Below are positions 17,321 through 24,051 of a stretch of DNA of 32,830 bases, one piece after another; within the stretch, counting starts at the first letter, position 1; every line of letters begins with the position of its first letter. Both the position numbers and the translations under genes were made by a program. Below the pieces are notes generated by a model. It saw nothing but the letters and a program-made list of their open reading frames with translations. It was not told the DNA's origin and did not search any database. Source of the stretch: Chitinophaga pinensis (lineage in GTDB: Bacteria; Bacteroidota; Bacteroidia; AKYH767-A; OLB10); the NCBI GenBank assembly GCA_943332105.1, contig CALQOD010000028.1, forward strand, positions 1-32,830, given 5' to 3'.

Positions 17321-18967
17321 CTATTCGTATTTAGCTACTATTGGCATTCGGCGTCCGCGACCAAATGACTTAGTAGAAACTCGTATGATTGGAGCAAATT
17401 GATTTCGCTTCCATTCATTGGCATTAACCATTTTTATCACTTTCGTTACTACATCGGCGTTATTCAACTTTTGAATTATTGATTGAACACTTTTTGTTTT
17501 TTCGATATACTCAAACAAAATAGCATCTAATAAATCATAATCGGGTAAGGAATCAGAATCCTTTTGATTGGGGTGTAATTCAGCTGATGGAGCTTTTGTA
17601 ATAGTGTTTACAGGAATAATCTCACTTTTACGATTGATATAATTAGCGAGCTCATAAACTTCTGTTTTATACAAATCTCCAATAACAGATAATCCTCCGC
17701 ACATATCGCCGTAAAGGGTTCCATACCCTACTGCTAATTCACTTTTATTAGAAGTATTTAAAAGAATAAAACCAAACTTATTGCTTAATGCCATTAAGAT
17801 ATTTCCACGGATTCGCGATTGAATATTTTCTTCAGCTATATTAAAAGAGGTGCCTCGAAAAGAATCATGCAAAGCAAGTTCATAGCGGTTAAATATATCG
17901 GCAATAGAAACAATTTCGTGTGAACACTTTAATTTATCAACTAAGCACAATGCATCATCGATAGAATGCTGTGAAGAAAATTCTGAAGGCATTAAAACTG
18001 CATGCACATTTTCTGAACCTAGTGCATCAGCAGCTAACGCTAATACAACTGCAGAATCAATTCCTCCAGATAGACCAACAATAGCTTTTTGAAAACCTGA
18101 TTTACCAAAGTAATCTTTTATTCCAAGAACAAGTGCGTTATTAATCTTGGAGATTTTCGAAGGTGTTTCGTAACTAACTTTTTTGTCGGTAGTAAATGAC
18201 TTTGTAGTCGTATCAAAATCTACAATTAAAAAGTCATCTTTAAAATAATCCAGTTCCTTTACGATAGATCCATCAGCATTCATTGCCAAAGATCCCCCAT
18301 CAAAAACAAAATCCGTATTAGCGCCAACCTGATTTACATAAACAAGCGGAAGTTGATAGTTGCTTACATTCTTTCTTAAAATATTTTTACGCTCTTCTTC
18401 GTGATTAAAATCAAACGGAGAAGCTGCAATATTTACCATTAATGACGGAGCCTCTTTAACGAGTTCATTCATTGGCCAATTGGTATACAAAGGATCGGCA
18501 TCAATATTCCAAAGGTCTTCGCAGATTGTTAAGGCTATTTTCACCCCTTTCACATTTACGCATGCGTAAGATTTGTTTTGTTCAAACCAACGATACTCTT
18601 CAAAAATATCATAAGTGGGCAATAACGATTTATTTCTTATTGAAGTTATTTCTCCATTCTGAATTAGCACCGCAGAATTAAACAAGTTCTTTCCATTAAC
18701 ATCTGGATTAACAGTTGGCGCTCCTATAATGACAGAAATGTTTTTACATTGTTGGGCGATATCCTGCAAATCAATATTACAGCTTTCAATAAAGTGTTGG
18801 TAATTTAGTAAATCCAATGGAGGATAGCCACATAAAGCCAATTCAGAAAAAACTAGCAAATCGATATTTTGGTTTATCGACTCATGAATTTTATCGAGAA
18901 TAATTTTCTTATTGAATGTTAAGTTACCTACATGGTAATTCAACTGAGCTAGTGCAATACGCAGCAT
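17321..18967 (-). CDS. nadE: Glutamine-dependent NAD+ synthetase
   Basis: NadE carries out the last step of NAD biosynthesis: ATP-dependent amidation of nicotinate adenine dinucleotide using ammonia from glutamine. The 548-residue protein has an N-terminal nitrilase-type glutaminase domain with the triad Glu42 (FSELALCGYPP), Lys113 (RNKSLLPTYD) and Cys149 (LTICEDLWN). A C-terminal synthetase domain follows, with the PP-loop SGGIDS (300-305) and downstream NTSNKSELAVGYGTLYGD and GLSVIGDLYKTEVYELA. All catalytic residues are present. It lies 19 bases after the beta-barrel gene on the same strand and is probably co-transcribed with it. Confidence 0.98.
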   Translation of the reverse strand: MLRIALAQLNYHVGNLTFNKKIILDKIHESINQNIDLLVFSELALCGYPPLDLLNYQHFIESCNIDLQDIAQQCKNISVIIGAPTVNPDVNGKNLFNSAVLIQNGEITSIRNKSLLPTYDIFEEYRWFEQNKSYACVNVKGVKIALTICEDLWNIDADPLYTNWPMNELVKEAPSLMVNIAASPFDFNHEEERKNILRKNVSNYQLPLVYVNQVGANTDFVFDGGSLAMNADGSIVKELDYFKDDFLIVDFDTTTKSFTTDKKVSYETPSKISKINNALVLGIKDYFGKSGFQKAIVGLSGGIDSAVVLALAADALGSENVHAVLMPSEFSSQHSIDDALCLVDKLKCSHEIVSIADIFNRYELALHDSFRGTSFNIAEENIQSRIRGNILMALSNKFGFILLNTSNKSELAVGYGTLYGDMCGGLSVIGDLYKTEVYELANYINRKSEIIPVNTITKAPSAELHPNQKDSDSLPDYDLLDAILFEYIEKTKSVQSIIQKLNNADVVTKVIKMVNANEWKRNQFAPIIRVSTKSFGRGRRMPIVAKYE

Positions 18968-18986: not shown

Positions 18987-19637
18987 TTAGAACATAATTC
19001 CAAGATTCAAGGCTACATAATTTGAAATAGCCTTGAATTCAGGATCATTGTCTTTTGATTTTGTTAAAACATCAACAAATCCATTATTAAATTCTAACGA
19101 TACTAAAAAAGTTGTTGACCCCGAGATGGTGTACTCCGCACCTAAGGCTATCATCATCGACATATTTATATCTGTAATGTTTGCTTTCGATTCAATATTT
19201 GATTCAGTAATTGACCCCTTTTCGGTATTTGTCTTAGCCGACAAGTTCAATCCTGGCACCAAACCAAATTGTCCGAAATAGCGATAACGGTTGAACTCAT
19301 TTGTTTTCATTTTAATTCCGATTGGTAGCTCCACATACTTTAATACATAACTTGTTCGAGTTAATACCGCAGCGCTATCATAGTTTAAAATTCCTCCACG
19401 ATAAGTAACCTGCAATCCGTATGTCAATGCGTAATTAGATGCAAAATTACTTTCTCCCATCAAACCGTAAGTAAAACCTAACTTAGAGCCATCTTTATTT
19501 AAGTCTTTCGTATCTGGTTTCATCCAAGCAATAGTGGGTGCAACTTTTAACCCAAAATGAAATTTTTGTTCCTGAGCGTTCGTTATCTTCGCAGACAATA
19601 TTGCAATAGTTAAAAATAGTAAAAACTTATTCTTCAT
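18987..19637 (-). CDS. PorT-like outer-membrane beta-barrel protein
   Basis: This is an exported protein of 216 residues. The ATG at 19637 is chosen over the longer open frame because it begins a textbook Sec signal peptide (MKNKFLLFLTIAILSA..., cleavage after TNA). The mature part reads as alternating amphipathic strands (FHFGLKVAPTIAW, LTYGLQVTYRGG, YVELPIGIKMK, YFGQFGLVPGLNLSAK, MIALGAEYTISG), typical of the 8-stranded OMP_b-brl_2/PorT-like family, and it ends with a Phe (LGIMF). True PorT belongs to the type IX secretion system, but many paralogues do not, so no symbol is given. Its start codon overlaps that of the divergent gldB inside one CATG. nadE follows 19 bases downstream. Confidence 0.85.
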   Translation of the reverse strand: MKNKFLLFLTIAILSAKITNAQEQKFHFGLKVAPTIAWMKPDTKDLNKDGSKLGFTYGLMGESNFASNYALTYGLQVTYRGGILNYDSAAVLTRTSYVLKYVELPIGIKMKTNEFNRYRYFGQFGLVPGLNLSAKTNTEKGSITESNIESKANITDINMSMMIALGAEYTISGSTTFLVSLEFNNGFVDVLTKSKDNDPEFKAISNYVALNLGIMF

Positions 19638-20736
19638 GATTTCAAGATTTGGTTCGGTAAAATTAGGAAAATTTGCAATAGTTGTTTGCTTATTTGGGAT
19701 AATAATAGGGCTTAACAGCTGTACTGAAAATAAAAAGAAAAAAAACGCTCCTATTCCGGTAGAAATACCAGATATCAAAATATCCTTAAAGGTTAATCGA
19801 TTTGAACAGGATTTATTTTCAATTAGAGAATTTGATAGCCTTTCAGTAGACAAACTTCGAAATAAATACGGTGATTTTTTTGATATATGGTGTTTAAAAT
19901 TATCAGGTATTGCTACAAGATCAATGTTAATAAAATCAAATGGCCAAATAACATTACCAATTAGCCAGGAGTTAATAAGCAATTTAAAGCAATACACAGA
20001 TGATAAATACATGCTTGAGGTATTTAGCGATGTAAATAAGAAATATTCAAACTTCGAAGGACTGAGTGATAGCTTAAAAAATGTTTTTAGCAGATATCAT
20101 GTGGCATTCCCAAATAAAAAAATTCCAACAATCACAACTTACCTATCTCCTTTTTACTCTAACATCACTGCAACAGAAAGCAACTTAGGAATTGGTCTGC
20201 ATTCTTATCTGGGTTCCGATTACAAATATTATCCGAGTACTGGCATGCCACTTTATATAATCAAAAAATTGAGCAAGGATTATCTTATAACAGATGCTAT
20301 GAAAGGATGGCTTGATAGCGATTACATGAATGACACATCTGATCAAGGTTTTATAAATCAAATTATATATCAAGGCAAAGTTTTATACGCACTTGAGTTA
20401 TTGGTGCCTGAAGCCGATGATACAATTAAAATCGGCTATTCATCAAAACAGTTAGATTGGGTATTTGAAAACGAACAGAATATTTGGAAAGTTTTTGTAG
20501 ACAACAATCTTTTATTCAGCAACAAACCTAAACTATATTTAAAGTTTATTAACGATGGCAATACAACTAGTGGATTCCCTAAAGAATCTCCTGCAAAGCT
20601 AGGTGCATTTATTGGTTGGCAAATAGTAAGATCTTACATGCATAAGCATGAAGGAGTAAAACTAGAGGCACTTTTTAATATGAATGATGGCAAAGCAATA
20701 CTTAATGAATCGGGATACAAGCCTAATAAAGATTAA
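19636..20736 (+). CDS. gldB: Gliding-motility lipoprotein GldB
   Basis: GldB is a lipoprotein essential for gliding in Flavobacterium and associated with the gliding/type IX secretion machinery; its molecular role is unclear. The 366-residue protein has a lipoprotein signal peptide with lipobox LNSC (26-29), so Cys29 is the lipidated residue. The mature domain contains RFEQDLFSI, KYGDFFDIWCLKLSGI, ITTYLSPFYSN, GLHSYLGSDYKYYP and a C-terminal KLGAFIGWQIVRSYM segment typical of the family. There is no alternative in-frame ATG before the lipobox, so the start at 19636 is well constrained even though it overlaps the divergent beta-barrel start. A near-consensus -7 (TATCTTCG, 19585-19592) lies inside that neighbour. 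gldC, often adjacent in flavobacteria, is absent; an MBL-fold gene begins on the base after the stop. Confidence 0.9.
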   Translation: MISRFGSVKLGKFAIVVCLFGIIIGLNSCTENKKKKNAPIPVEIPDIKISLKVNRFEQDLFSIREFDSLSVDKLRNKYGDFFDIWCLKLSGIATRSMLIKSNGQITLPISQELISNLKQYTDDKYMLEVFSDVNKKYSNFEGLSDSLKNVFSRYHVAFPNKKIPTITTYLSPFYSNITATESNLGIGLHSYLGSDYKYYPSTGMPLYIIKKLSKDYLITDAMKGWLDSDYMNDTSDQGFINQIIYQGKVLYALELLVPEADDTIKIGYSSKQLDWVFENEQNIWKVFVDNNLLFSNKPKLYLKFINDGNTTSGFPKESPAKLGAFIGWQIVRSYMHKHEGVKLEALFNMNDGKAILNESGYKPNKD

Positions 20737-21381
20737 ATGAACACGATAAAATATTTCACTTTCAATCCTACACAAGAAAACACTTATGTGATTAGCAACG
20801 AAAGTAACTTGTGCGTTATTATAGATCCAGGATGTTATTATCCAGAAGAGAAAAAAGAACTATTCGATTATATTCAAGAATCCGGTTTACAACCAGTTCA
20901 CTTATTAAATACTCATTGCCATACCGATCATGTAATGGGTAATGCATTTGTAAAAGAGTGCTTTGGCTTAAGTCCGAAAATTCACGCTCAAGAATTAGTT
21001 GTGTTAAATCATGCTAAGACATTAGGGTCTTCATTTGGATTATTTATGGATGAATCACCAGATCCTGAAATTTGTCTTGAAGAAGGGGGATTCATTACTT
21101 TTGGAGAAACGACATTAAAAATTATTTTCACTCCAGGGCATTCACCAGGAAGCGTTTGTTTTTATAATGAAAGTGAAAAATATTTAATTGGTGGAGACGT
21201 CTTATTTAAAAATAGTATTGGTCGAACAGATTTGCCAGGAGGGGATTTAGAAACATTGCTAAATTCAATATCTGAAAAATTGTTTAAATTAGATGAGGAT
21301 ACAATTGTATACCCGGGACATGGACCATCAACGAGCATTGGATACGAAAAAATCAATAATCCATTCTTAAAAAATTATTGA
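20737..21381 (+). CDS. MBL-fold metallo-hydrolase (glyoxalase II-like)
   Basis: This is a 214-residue zinc hydrolase of the metallo-beta-lactamase fold, probably a thioester hydrolase of the glyoxalase II / YcbL type. The metal ligands are all present: H60-x-H62-x-D64-H65 in NTHCHTDHVMGN, His135 in TPGHSPGSVCFY, Asp154 in GGDVLFKNSIGRTDLPGGD and His195 in YPGHGPSTSIGYEK. The GRTDLPGGD segment is typical of the glyoxalase II-like subgroup. No signal peptide is visible, so it is cytoplasmic. The ATG follows the gldB stop with no gap (TAAATG), which implies translational coupling. The actual substrate cannot be told from the sequence. Confidence 0.95.
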   Translation: MNTIKYFTFNPTQENTYVISNESNLCVIIDPGCYYPEEKKELFDYIQESGLQPVHLLNTHCHTDHVMGNAFVKECFGLSPKIHAQELVVLNHAKTLGSSFGLFMDESPDPEICLEEGGFITFGETTLKIIFTPGHSPGSVCFYNESEKYLIGGDVLFKNSIGRTDLPGGDLETLLNSISEKLFKLDEDTIVYPGHGPSTSIGYEKINNPFLKNY

Positions 21382-22849: not shown

Positions 22850-22970
22850 CACTTAGATTCATTAGGAATTTAACTTGTTTTCTTTATGTTCGCCAAAACT
22901 ATTATTAATCAGAGATTGTTTGTATTCGTAATTATCCCTTTAATTATTCTAGAAAATTAGATATATTGAT

Positions 22971-22978
22971 TAAATTTG
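22971..22978 (+). promoter_or_regulatory. -7 promoter element for the desaturase gene
   Basis: TAAATTTG fits TAnnTTTG and ends 5 bases before the ATG at 22984. It lies downstream of the alternative ATG at 22966, which argues against that upstream start. No good -33 element is visible. The rest of the 22850-22983 gap holds nothing else recognisable. Confidence 0.5.
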
Positions 22979-22983
22979 CGACC

Positions 22984-24051
22984 ATGAGAAAAATAACATT
23001 TAACAATAAGCAAAGTCCGTTATTTGACGCTTTAAGAGAAAAAACAGACGCTTATTTCGAGACTCACAACATCCCTGCTACTGGTAACTATAAACTATTT
23101 AGCAAGACCATTATATTAGTTTCGGTTGCAATTACCGCCTATCTGCTTTTAGTTTTAGGTGATTTACATTGGGGTATTCAAGTAGGGTTATGTGCTATAC
23201 TTGGATTAACCTTTGCGAGCATTGGATTTAATGTAATGCATGATGGTGCTCATGGCTCCTACTCTTCAAACAAACATTTGAACAATATCATGTCATACTC
23301 ATTAAACATGATGGGCTGTTCAAGTTTTATGTGGAAGATAAAGCACAATGTTATTCACCATACTTATACAAATATTGAAGGTGTTGATGATGATATTGCA
23401 ATTGGTCCTTTAATGCGCGTTAATGAACACCAAAAGAAATATTGGATTCATAGATTTCAACATATCTACTGGGTGATATTATACGGATTAACTTACTTTA
23501 TATGGATATTTGGTAACGACTTCAAAAAATATTTTACTGGAAAAATTGGTCCAACTCCAATTCGCAAAATGAAGCTTTCTGAACACTTTGGATTTTGGAT
23601 TACTAAAATAATTTATATTTCATTATTGATTGTTTTGCCATCATACCAGCATGGATTAGGTTATGCATTAATTGGATATGGAGTGATATTATTTGTAACT
23701 GGATTAGTTATAGCAGTTGTATTTCAATTAGCGCATGTTGTAGAAGACACTAAATTCCCATCTCCAGATAATAATACTAATAAGATTGAAAATGAGTGGG
23801 CATTGCATCAGATTAATACAACTGCAAATTTTGCAACACACAATAAAGTAATTAGTTGGTTCATGGGTGGATTAAACTTTCAGGTGGAGCATCACCTGTT
23901 TCCAAAAATAAGCCACATTCATTATCCAGAAATAAGTAAAATTGTACGCAACACATGCAGAGAATTCAATGTTCAATATATTGAATATCCTACATTTATT
24001 AGTGCAATTGGGGCACATTTGCGCCACTTAAAAGAATTAGGAAGAGCCTAG
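22984..24051 (+). CDS. Membrane fatty-acid desaturase
   Basis: This is an integral-membrane di-iron desaturase that introduces a double bond into a fatty acyl chain of a lipid or acyl-CoA. Counting from the ATG at 22984 (355 residues), the three histidine boxes are H86-DGA-H90 in NVMHDGAHGSYS, H121-NVI-H125-H126, and Q300-VE-H303-H304 in QVEHHLFP. QxxHH at the third box is typical of front-end/linoleoyl-CoA-desaturase-like enzymes, but no cytochrome b5 domain is fused here. Hydrophobic segments flank the boxes (~41-59, 62-84, then two pairs around 155-175 and 205-255). The start at 22984 rather than 22966 is preferred because the -7 element lies between them. It converges with the polyprenyl synthase, the stop codons sharing CTAG. 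Confidence 0.93.
   Translation: MRKITFNNKQSPLFDALREKTDAYFETHNIPATGNYKLFSKTIILVSVAITAYLLLVLGDLHWGIQVGLCAILGLTFASIGFNVMHDGAHGSYSSNKHLNNIMSYSLNMMGCSSFMWKIKHNVIHHTYTNIEGVDDDIAIGPLMRVNEHQKKYWIHRFQHIYWVILYGLTYFIWIFGNDFKKYFTGKIGPTPIRKMKLSEHFGFWITKIIYISLLIVLPSYQHGLGYALIGYGVILFVTGLVIAVVFQLAHVVEDTKFPSPDNNTNKIENEWALHQINTTANFATHNKVISWFMGGLNFQVEHHLFPKISHIHYPEISKIVRNTCREFNVQYIEYPTFISAIGAHLRHLKELGRA

Follow-up and report, generated by a model that had tools for sequence, protein, structure and literature searches.

Start codons of gldB and a divergent outer-membrane barrel gene share one CATG in a tightly packed control region with predicted head-on promoters

Divergent genes that share bases of their start regions have been surveyed across prokaryotes: a count over 58 species lists 331 divergent overlaps (its Table 2), and such overlaps are strongly under-represented in most of these prokaryotes (PMC2174442). 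At the level of transcription, a related arrangement is that of the E. coli bidirectional promoters (Warman et al., 2026; PMC12825309): two promoters lie on a short stretch, one polymerase binding event blocks the other, and divergent transcripts result, with one pseudo-symmetrical sequence serving both directions. In that system basal bidirectional transcription is too weak for the promoters to compete, and competition sets in once one side is activated (PMC12825309). The primary-sigma promoter of the Bacteroidota is characterized by a -7 element of the form TAnnTTTG or TAHHTTTG (PMC6847099; PMC9723704). In F. johnsoniae transcription starts 4-5 nt after this element, the mean leader is 33 nt, and G is almost never found at the two n positions (PMC6847099); the median leader of F. 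psychrophilum is 24 nt (PMC9723704). The promoter of gldB is not described in the main texts of these two studies, one of which names gldB once, in its reference list (PMC6847099), and the other not at all (PMC9723704). Its product GldB has been called necessary for gliding, with its function given as unknown (PMC5879114).

The window considered here is a stretch of 32,830 nucleotides from a Chitinophaga pinensis assembly (contig CALQOD010000028.1). In it, gldB and a gene for a small outer-membrane beta-barrel (henceforth the barrel gene) diverge from overlapping start codons (Table 1). The pair resembles the divergent overlapping genes surveyed earlier (PMC2174442) in that the two genes share start-region bases; those overlaps were counted across species, whereas the present one is a single case whose origin we trace to a start codon shifted from genus to genus within one family. 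Its likeness to the E. coli promoters (PMC12825309) is a predicted one: two promoters on a short stretch, of which polymerase binding at one would block the other, with divergent transcripts. Unlike the E. coli case, the pair has, across relatives, two separate predicted -7 elements that face each other and often overlap the opposite start codon. These elements are of the same type as the Bacteroidota primary-sigma element, and the leaders predicted from them are of similar length (PMC6847099; PMC9723704). Our literature search found no published description of the gldB/barrel locus among the open-licence articles covered.

Table 1. Features of the gldB/barrel locus, in positions of the window
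Feature	Position	Strand	Evidence or remark
nadE, NAD+ synthase	17321..18967	-	NF010588 666.9 bits
Small outer-membrane beta-barrel, signal peptide, 216 aa, not PorT	18987..19637	-	PF13568 58.8 bits, cut-off 27
Weak candidate gldB -7 element TATCTTCG, one mismatch	19584..19591	+	inside barrel gene; read by eye
CATG, start codons overlapping by two bases	19635..19638	.	direct reading; in 6/7 genus genomes
gldB, lipoprotein, 366 aa, lipobox Cys29	19636..20736	+	TIGR03514 222.2 bits, cut-off 190; PF25594 304.9 bits
Candidate barrel -7 element TAATTTTA, one mismatch to TAnnTTTG	19658..19665	-	inside gldB codons 8-10
Metallo-beta-lactamase-fold hydrolase, directly behind gldB	20737..21381	+	PF00753 116.6 bits

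The initial annotation had claimed that the start codons of the two genes share one CATG, and direct reading of the sequence bears this out: with C at 19635, the gldB ATG occupies 19636-19638 on the forward strand and the barrel ATG 19637-19635 on the reverse strand, an overlap of 2 bases in the context ...TTCTTCATGATTTCAAG... (shown also as ...TTATTCTTCATGATTTCAAG...). Both starts, which it had held to be well supported, are indeed so: from the preceding in-frame stop to where the signal peptide gives way to the rest of the protein (lipobox Cys29), no ATG, GTG or TTG is found other than the gldB ATG; the barrel ATG opens MKNKFLLFLTIAILSAKITNAQ; and at both codons a signal peptide starts normally. 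The mechanically called ORF of the barrel gene extends further upstream, to an ATG at 20012. We place the barrel start at 19637 because this extension runs antisense to gldB and because the frame is shut 75 nt upstream in two members of the genus (G003 and G005). The open barrel frame antisense to gldB (19638-20012, reverse strand) spans 375 nt, and long open stretches are present in four close relatives; it is not kept in G003 or G005.

The overlap is real and uncommon. A rough gene caller yields 37 divergent pairs on a 358-kb contig from a member of the genus (G005:C14), and in a single one of them, the gldB pair, does a CATG close to the two starts lie in both reading frames; with the first-ATG starts of that caller, the gldB pair stands at -65 and one other pair at -20. 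The sharing of the CATG appears to exceed chance, as the same CATG is kept in G002-G006 despite GldB identities of 53-75%.

GldB passes the curated cut-off of the equivalog model TIGR03514, and its lipobox cysteine, preceded by 28 residues, is invariant in 26 aligned members. Its structural model (pLDDT 89.8) aligns with the catalytic domains of M1-type zinc aminopeptidases (Z 8.4 over 200 residues, rmsd 5.0); an HExxH motif is present in 0/26 GldB proteins, and a Foldseek search gave no significant match (best E 0.39). Hence, GldB may be an inactive peptidase-like fold, or an alignment of this level may reflect only a common arrangement.

The barrel protein passes the gathering cut-off of PF13568 (OMP_b-brl_2), a family to which each of 26 aligned members is matched with an E of at most 0.001, and its model (pLDDT 91.5) resembles small barrels of the OmpA/OmpX/OmpW type. 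It had initially been taken for a PorT-like protein. With PorT/SprT of the type IX secretion system it has in common that both are small outer-membrane barrels with weak sequence similarity; an identification as PorT was rejected, as it scores 29.3 bits against NF052311, far below the cut-off of 125, and the same genome carries a separate PorT/SprT on another contig (G000:C72:11200-11886; 220.5 bits). Across a class sample of 197 genomes, PorT (E 1e-25) was found in 185, of which 151 also have the barrel (E 1e-15); six of the 12 genomes without PorT have the barrel (both counts read by hand). This co-occurrence is only suggestive of a link between the barrel and type IX secretion. Individual genomes of this sample show other combinations. 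In one rated 100% complete, with no barrel match at E 1e-15, PorT lies tail-to-tail with gldB (G075:C2:872561-874273); another, a single contig likewise rated 100% complete (G079), has no match for gldB, barrel or PorT; and three genomes of one family (G072, G109 and G167) have a gldB match and none for barrel or PorT, the E-value limits in the latter two cases differing between the proteins.

Of the flanking genes, nadE lies 19 nt behind the barrel gene and is perhaps co-transcribed with it. The hydrolase behind gldB was matched in 12 of the 48 loci tabulated, all in the genus and its two nearest genera; as the loci extend about 400 nt beyond gldB, its absence elsewhere is weak evidence. Further downstream, an ORF at 22966-24051, which we take to be fatty-acid-desaturase-like, is called with TTG as its first codon; its start may instead be the in-frame ATG six codons further on.

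We compared the locus across 7 genomes of the genus, that of the window (G000) among them, and 24 of the family. The overlap recurs within the genus: the shared CATG is found in six of the seven (G000 and G002-G006). It is absent from the seventh (G001), which has CATAATG with the two ATGs one base apart (gap 1), and from the 16 other readable family members, where gldB and the barrel gene are separated by gaps of 20-43 nt. The shared CATG is a genus trait. Starts were set by hand in nine relatives; three of the 16 gaps (G010, G017 and G021) rest on a TTG so set and would be 6 nt with an upstream ATG or GTG. A seventeenth family member outside the genus (G019) was left out, its pair being split over contigs.

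The head-to-head pair itself, unlike the shared CATG, is to judge from its distribution an old feature. In a sample of 61 relatives, all 55 pairs readable on one contig are adjacent and head-to-head; as for the other six genomes, G019 has the genes on different contigs, G034 and G055 yielded matches for gldB only, G032 for the barrel only, and G040 and G059 for neither. In the class sample (197 genomes, at least 90% complete), gldB was matched in 193 and the barrel in 157 (E 1e-15). The two are adjacent and divergent in 122 of the 130 genomes with both places listed, a count that uses listed places only (at least 150 for gldB and at least 149 for the barrel, as against 193 and 157 genomes with matches). 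Among the eight exceptions are the three members sampled from each of the families f48 and f54; some such lineages have probably split the pair. Of the 55 loci, 48 were tabulated, and 43 of these have a nadE match behind the barrel gene, five of them to the C-terminal part only; the barrel is thus part of an old nadE-barrel / gldB cluster. The gldB-barrel overlap is best read as the extreme form of close divergent packing in a control region that most of the class genomes examined retain. In f48 and f54, barrel and gldB were found on different contigs in each of the three sampled members.

The control region was analysed in 141 pairs with starts assigned for both genes, 55 from the relatives and 86 from the class, the kinship among pairs being left uncorrected. 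There were 101 new class pairs, of which 100 were fetched (G206 was left out) and 14 were dropped for lack of a start that could be assigned or because their gap was not within -5 to 260. The median gap is 48 nt, and 95/141 pairs have a gap of 60 nt or less. Each XXnnXXXX pattern occurring in the 80 nt upstream was ranked against an expectation from shuffles that keep single-base content only. Upstream of gldB, TAnnTTTG ranks first among 2630 patterns (88/141 pairs versus 9.0 expected). Upstream of the barrel gene it ranks second among 2726 (51/141 versus 5.2 expected), the first being TAnnATTG (57 pairs versus 6.5 expected). Within 90 nt, TAnnTTTG is present in 93/141 pairs on the gldB side and 54/141 on the barrel side, while 30 arrangements of its letters have medians of 11 and 6, the highest of the others reaching 23 and 30. 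For the broader TAnnWTTG, 42/141 gldB and 32/141 barrel genes are without a match within 90 nt.

Many of these elements lie on the opposite start codon. The gldB TAnnWTTG starts most often at the T of the barrel start codon (39 pairs); seen from the barrel side, this gldB element reads CAAAnnTATG, which occurs at 38/141 barrel starts versus 1/141 gldB starts, and at 1/261 ORF starts of a genus contig. The barrel element overlaps the gldB start codon in 16 pairs, and in 54/141 TAnnWTTG overlaps the opposite start codon in at least one direction; elements are found away from start codons too. Both directions have a -7 element in 79/141 pairs. With transcription predicted to start 5 nt after the element, the predicted starts overlap head-on in 63 of these 79, and the leaders have medians of 33 nt for gldB and 24 nt for the barrel gene, close to the lengths reported for F. 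johnsoniae and F. psychrophilum (PMC6847099; PMC9723704); in 46/79 the facing elements are 25-45 nt apart (T to T). If G is barred from the n positions, as in the F. johnsoniae promoters (PMC6847099), TAHHTTTG is retained in 74/141 (gldB) and 41/141 (barrel) pairs, and the opposite start codon is overlapped in 27 and 16; with TAHHWTTG, both elements are present in 53 pairs, 40 of them with head-on starts. The gldB elements of G003, G005 and G016 violate this rule and can be accounted for by barrel codons.

The relatives also suggest how the shared CATG arose. Half of the 16 readable family members from other genera (eight genomes, five genera) have the gldB ATG inside the barrel element, which reads TATCATTG (7) or TAACATTG (1) and whose CAT is the complement of that ATG. 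The two nearest genera (five genomes) have gaps of 20-22 nt and 19-20 residues of GldB before the lipobox cysteine; in the genus of the window the gap is -2 (1 in G001) and the signal peptide is longer, with 28 residues before the cysteine (27 in G001). The distance of the barrel element from its own ATG is 26-28 nt in those five genomes and 28 nt in G003 and G005. The gldB start of the genus lies about 8 codons (24 nt) further upstream, against the barrel ATG, and the spacer is now coding. Since gaps are wider elsewhere, we infer that the start moved upstream here and not downstream elsewhere.

In the window's genome an exact TAnnWTTG is found within 90 nt for neither gene, as is also the case in G001, G002, G004 and G006; its promoters were therefore read by comparison with relatives. 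The claim in the initial annotation that each promoter must lie inside the opposite gene thus stands in part: comparison of the 141 pairs points to promoters on or in the opposite first codons, and the genome itself has no exact -7 element there. The site of the barrel candidate reads TAATTTTA in G000, G002, G004 and G006 and TAAATTTG in G003 and G005, and its spacing from the barrel ATG corresponds to that of TATCATTG in the nearest sister genera; G001 has the same letters as TAATTTTA, three bases nearer its own gldB ATG. The gldB candidate TATCTTCG reads TATATTCG in four close relatives and falls within a block of conserved barrel codons; it is not convincing alone, and one-mismatch candidates are common by chance. 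A leaderless gldB mRNA in G003 and G005, from TACGTTTG at -11 to -4, was considered and set aside, as this has G at an n position and is explained by barrel codons. Between 18900 and 21500, a sigma-70 promoter scan gave 11 promoter-like sites versus 14.2 expected and a terminator scan none versus 1.3 expected, both being uninformative for this phylum; Rfam gave no match at 19300-20000.

The first codons of both genes are conserved beyond the protein. Among columns with identical amino acids in the five closest genomes, the codon is identical in 7/7 within gldB codons 1-15 versus 67/222 in the rest (p=0.0003), and in 17/23 within barrel codons 1-30 versus 43/132 in the rest (p=0.0003). These windows were picked after viewing bins; the same test gives 9/14 for gldB codons 1-30 (p=0.015) and 6/9 for barrel codons 1-15 (p=0.09). 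Such conservation fits signals inside both 5' ends, and may instead stem from translation.

We consider it fairly probable that this old, conserved pair carries overlapping head-on promoters between which polymerase competes. Its control region would have been compacted into some tens of bases, with each gene transcribed from a primary-sigma promoter of the TAnnTTTG type on or near the start codon of the other. Promoters so placed would therefore face and overlap each other; RNA polymerase would be unable to occupy both simultaneously, and the gldB and barrel mRNAs would begin with complementary ends. In the genus, the gldB start codon would have shifted upstream by 24 nt (8 codons), the leftover spacer becoming signal-peptide codons until the gldB start met the barrel start, and the barrel -7 element would have stayed put, so as to lie inside gldB now. 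Interference between the two genes or their co-regulation, as the initial annotation had predicted, can reasonably be inferred. The interference may be conditional, given that competition at the E. coli promoters appears only with one side activated (PMC12825309).

The overlap would call for no such coupling if it were a neutral by-product of compact gene order, with a chance ATG gained upstream of gldB and the promoters left where they already were. The lack of a shared CATG in G001, the gaps of at least 20 nt in sister genera and the separation of the genes in 8/130 class genomes would all agree with this. We nevertheless regard it as unlikely, as start sharing is rare both on the genus contig (1/37 divergent pairs) and in the survey of 58 species (PMC2174442), the genes stay tightly divergent throughout the class sample with -7 elements on opposite start codons, and the 5' codons are conserved.

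The two further explanations concern the signals themselves. Enrichment of TAnnTTTG could mirror translation signals, in that A-rich leaders before an ATG read as TTTG on the other strand: F. johnsoniae does adjust its translation through Kozak-like bases close to the start (PMC6847099), and 39 gldB elements begin exactly at the barrel CAT. A mirror of this kind is improbable in view of the near-confinement of CAAAnnTATG to barrel starts, as opposed to gldB starts and the ORF starts of the genus contig, the lower counts of all other arrangements of the same letters and the presence of elements away from start codons. Least credible is a misassigned start, whereby gldB or the barrel gene would begin at a downstream non-ATG codon and the overlap would vanish. 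The barrel frame open to 20012 and the ambiguous gldB starts of G010, G017 and G021 speak for it; it is highly improbable against an ATG at the site in six of seven genus genomes (one codon less in G001), the lack of any ATG, GTG or TTG between the site and the gldB lipobox, and the normal beginnings of both signal peptides.

A further and doubtful possibility is that GldB has in the barrel an outer-membrane partner so far unrecognised: the two would be made in linked, mutually limiting amounts by promoters kept interlocked across the class, with start codons inside each other's -7 elements, and the shared CATG would be the extreme form of this lock. The barrel gene, which lies head-to-head with gldB in the majority of the class genomes examined, gives deletion studies a definite candidate partner to test. 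The locus also offers a natural example of start codons sharing bases with predicted promoter elements, and of a start codon that has seemingly moved along a promoter that stayed in place.
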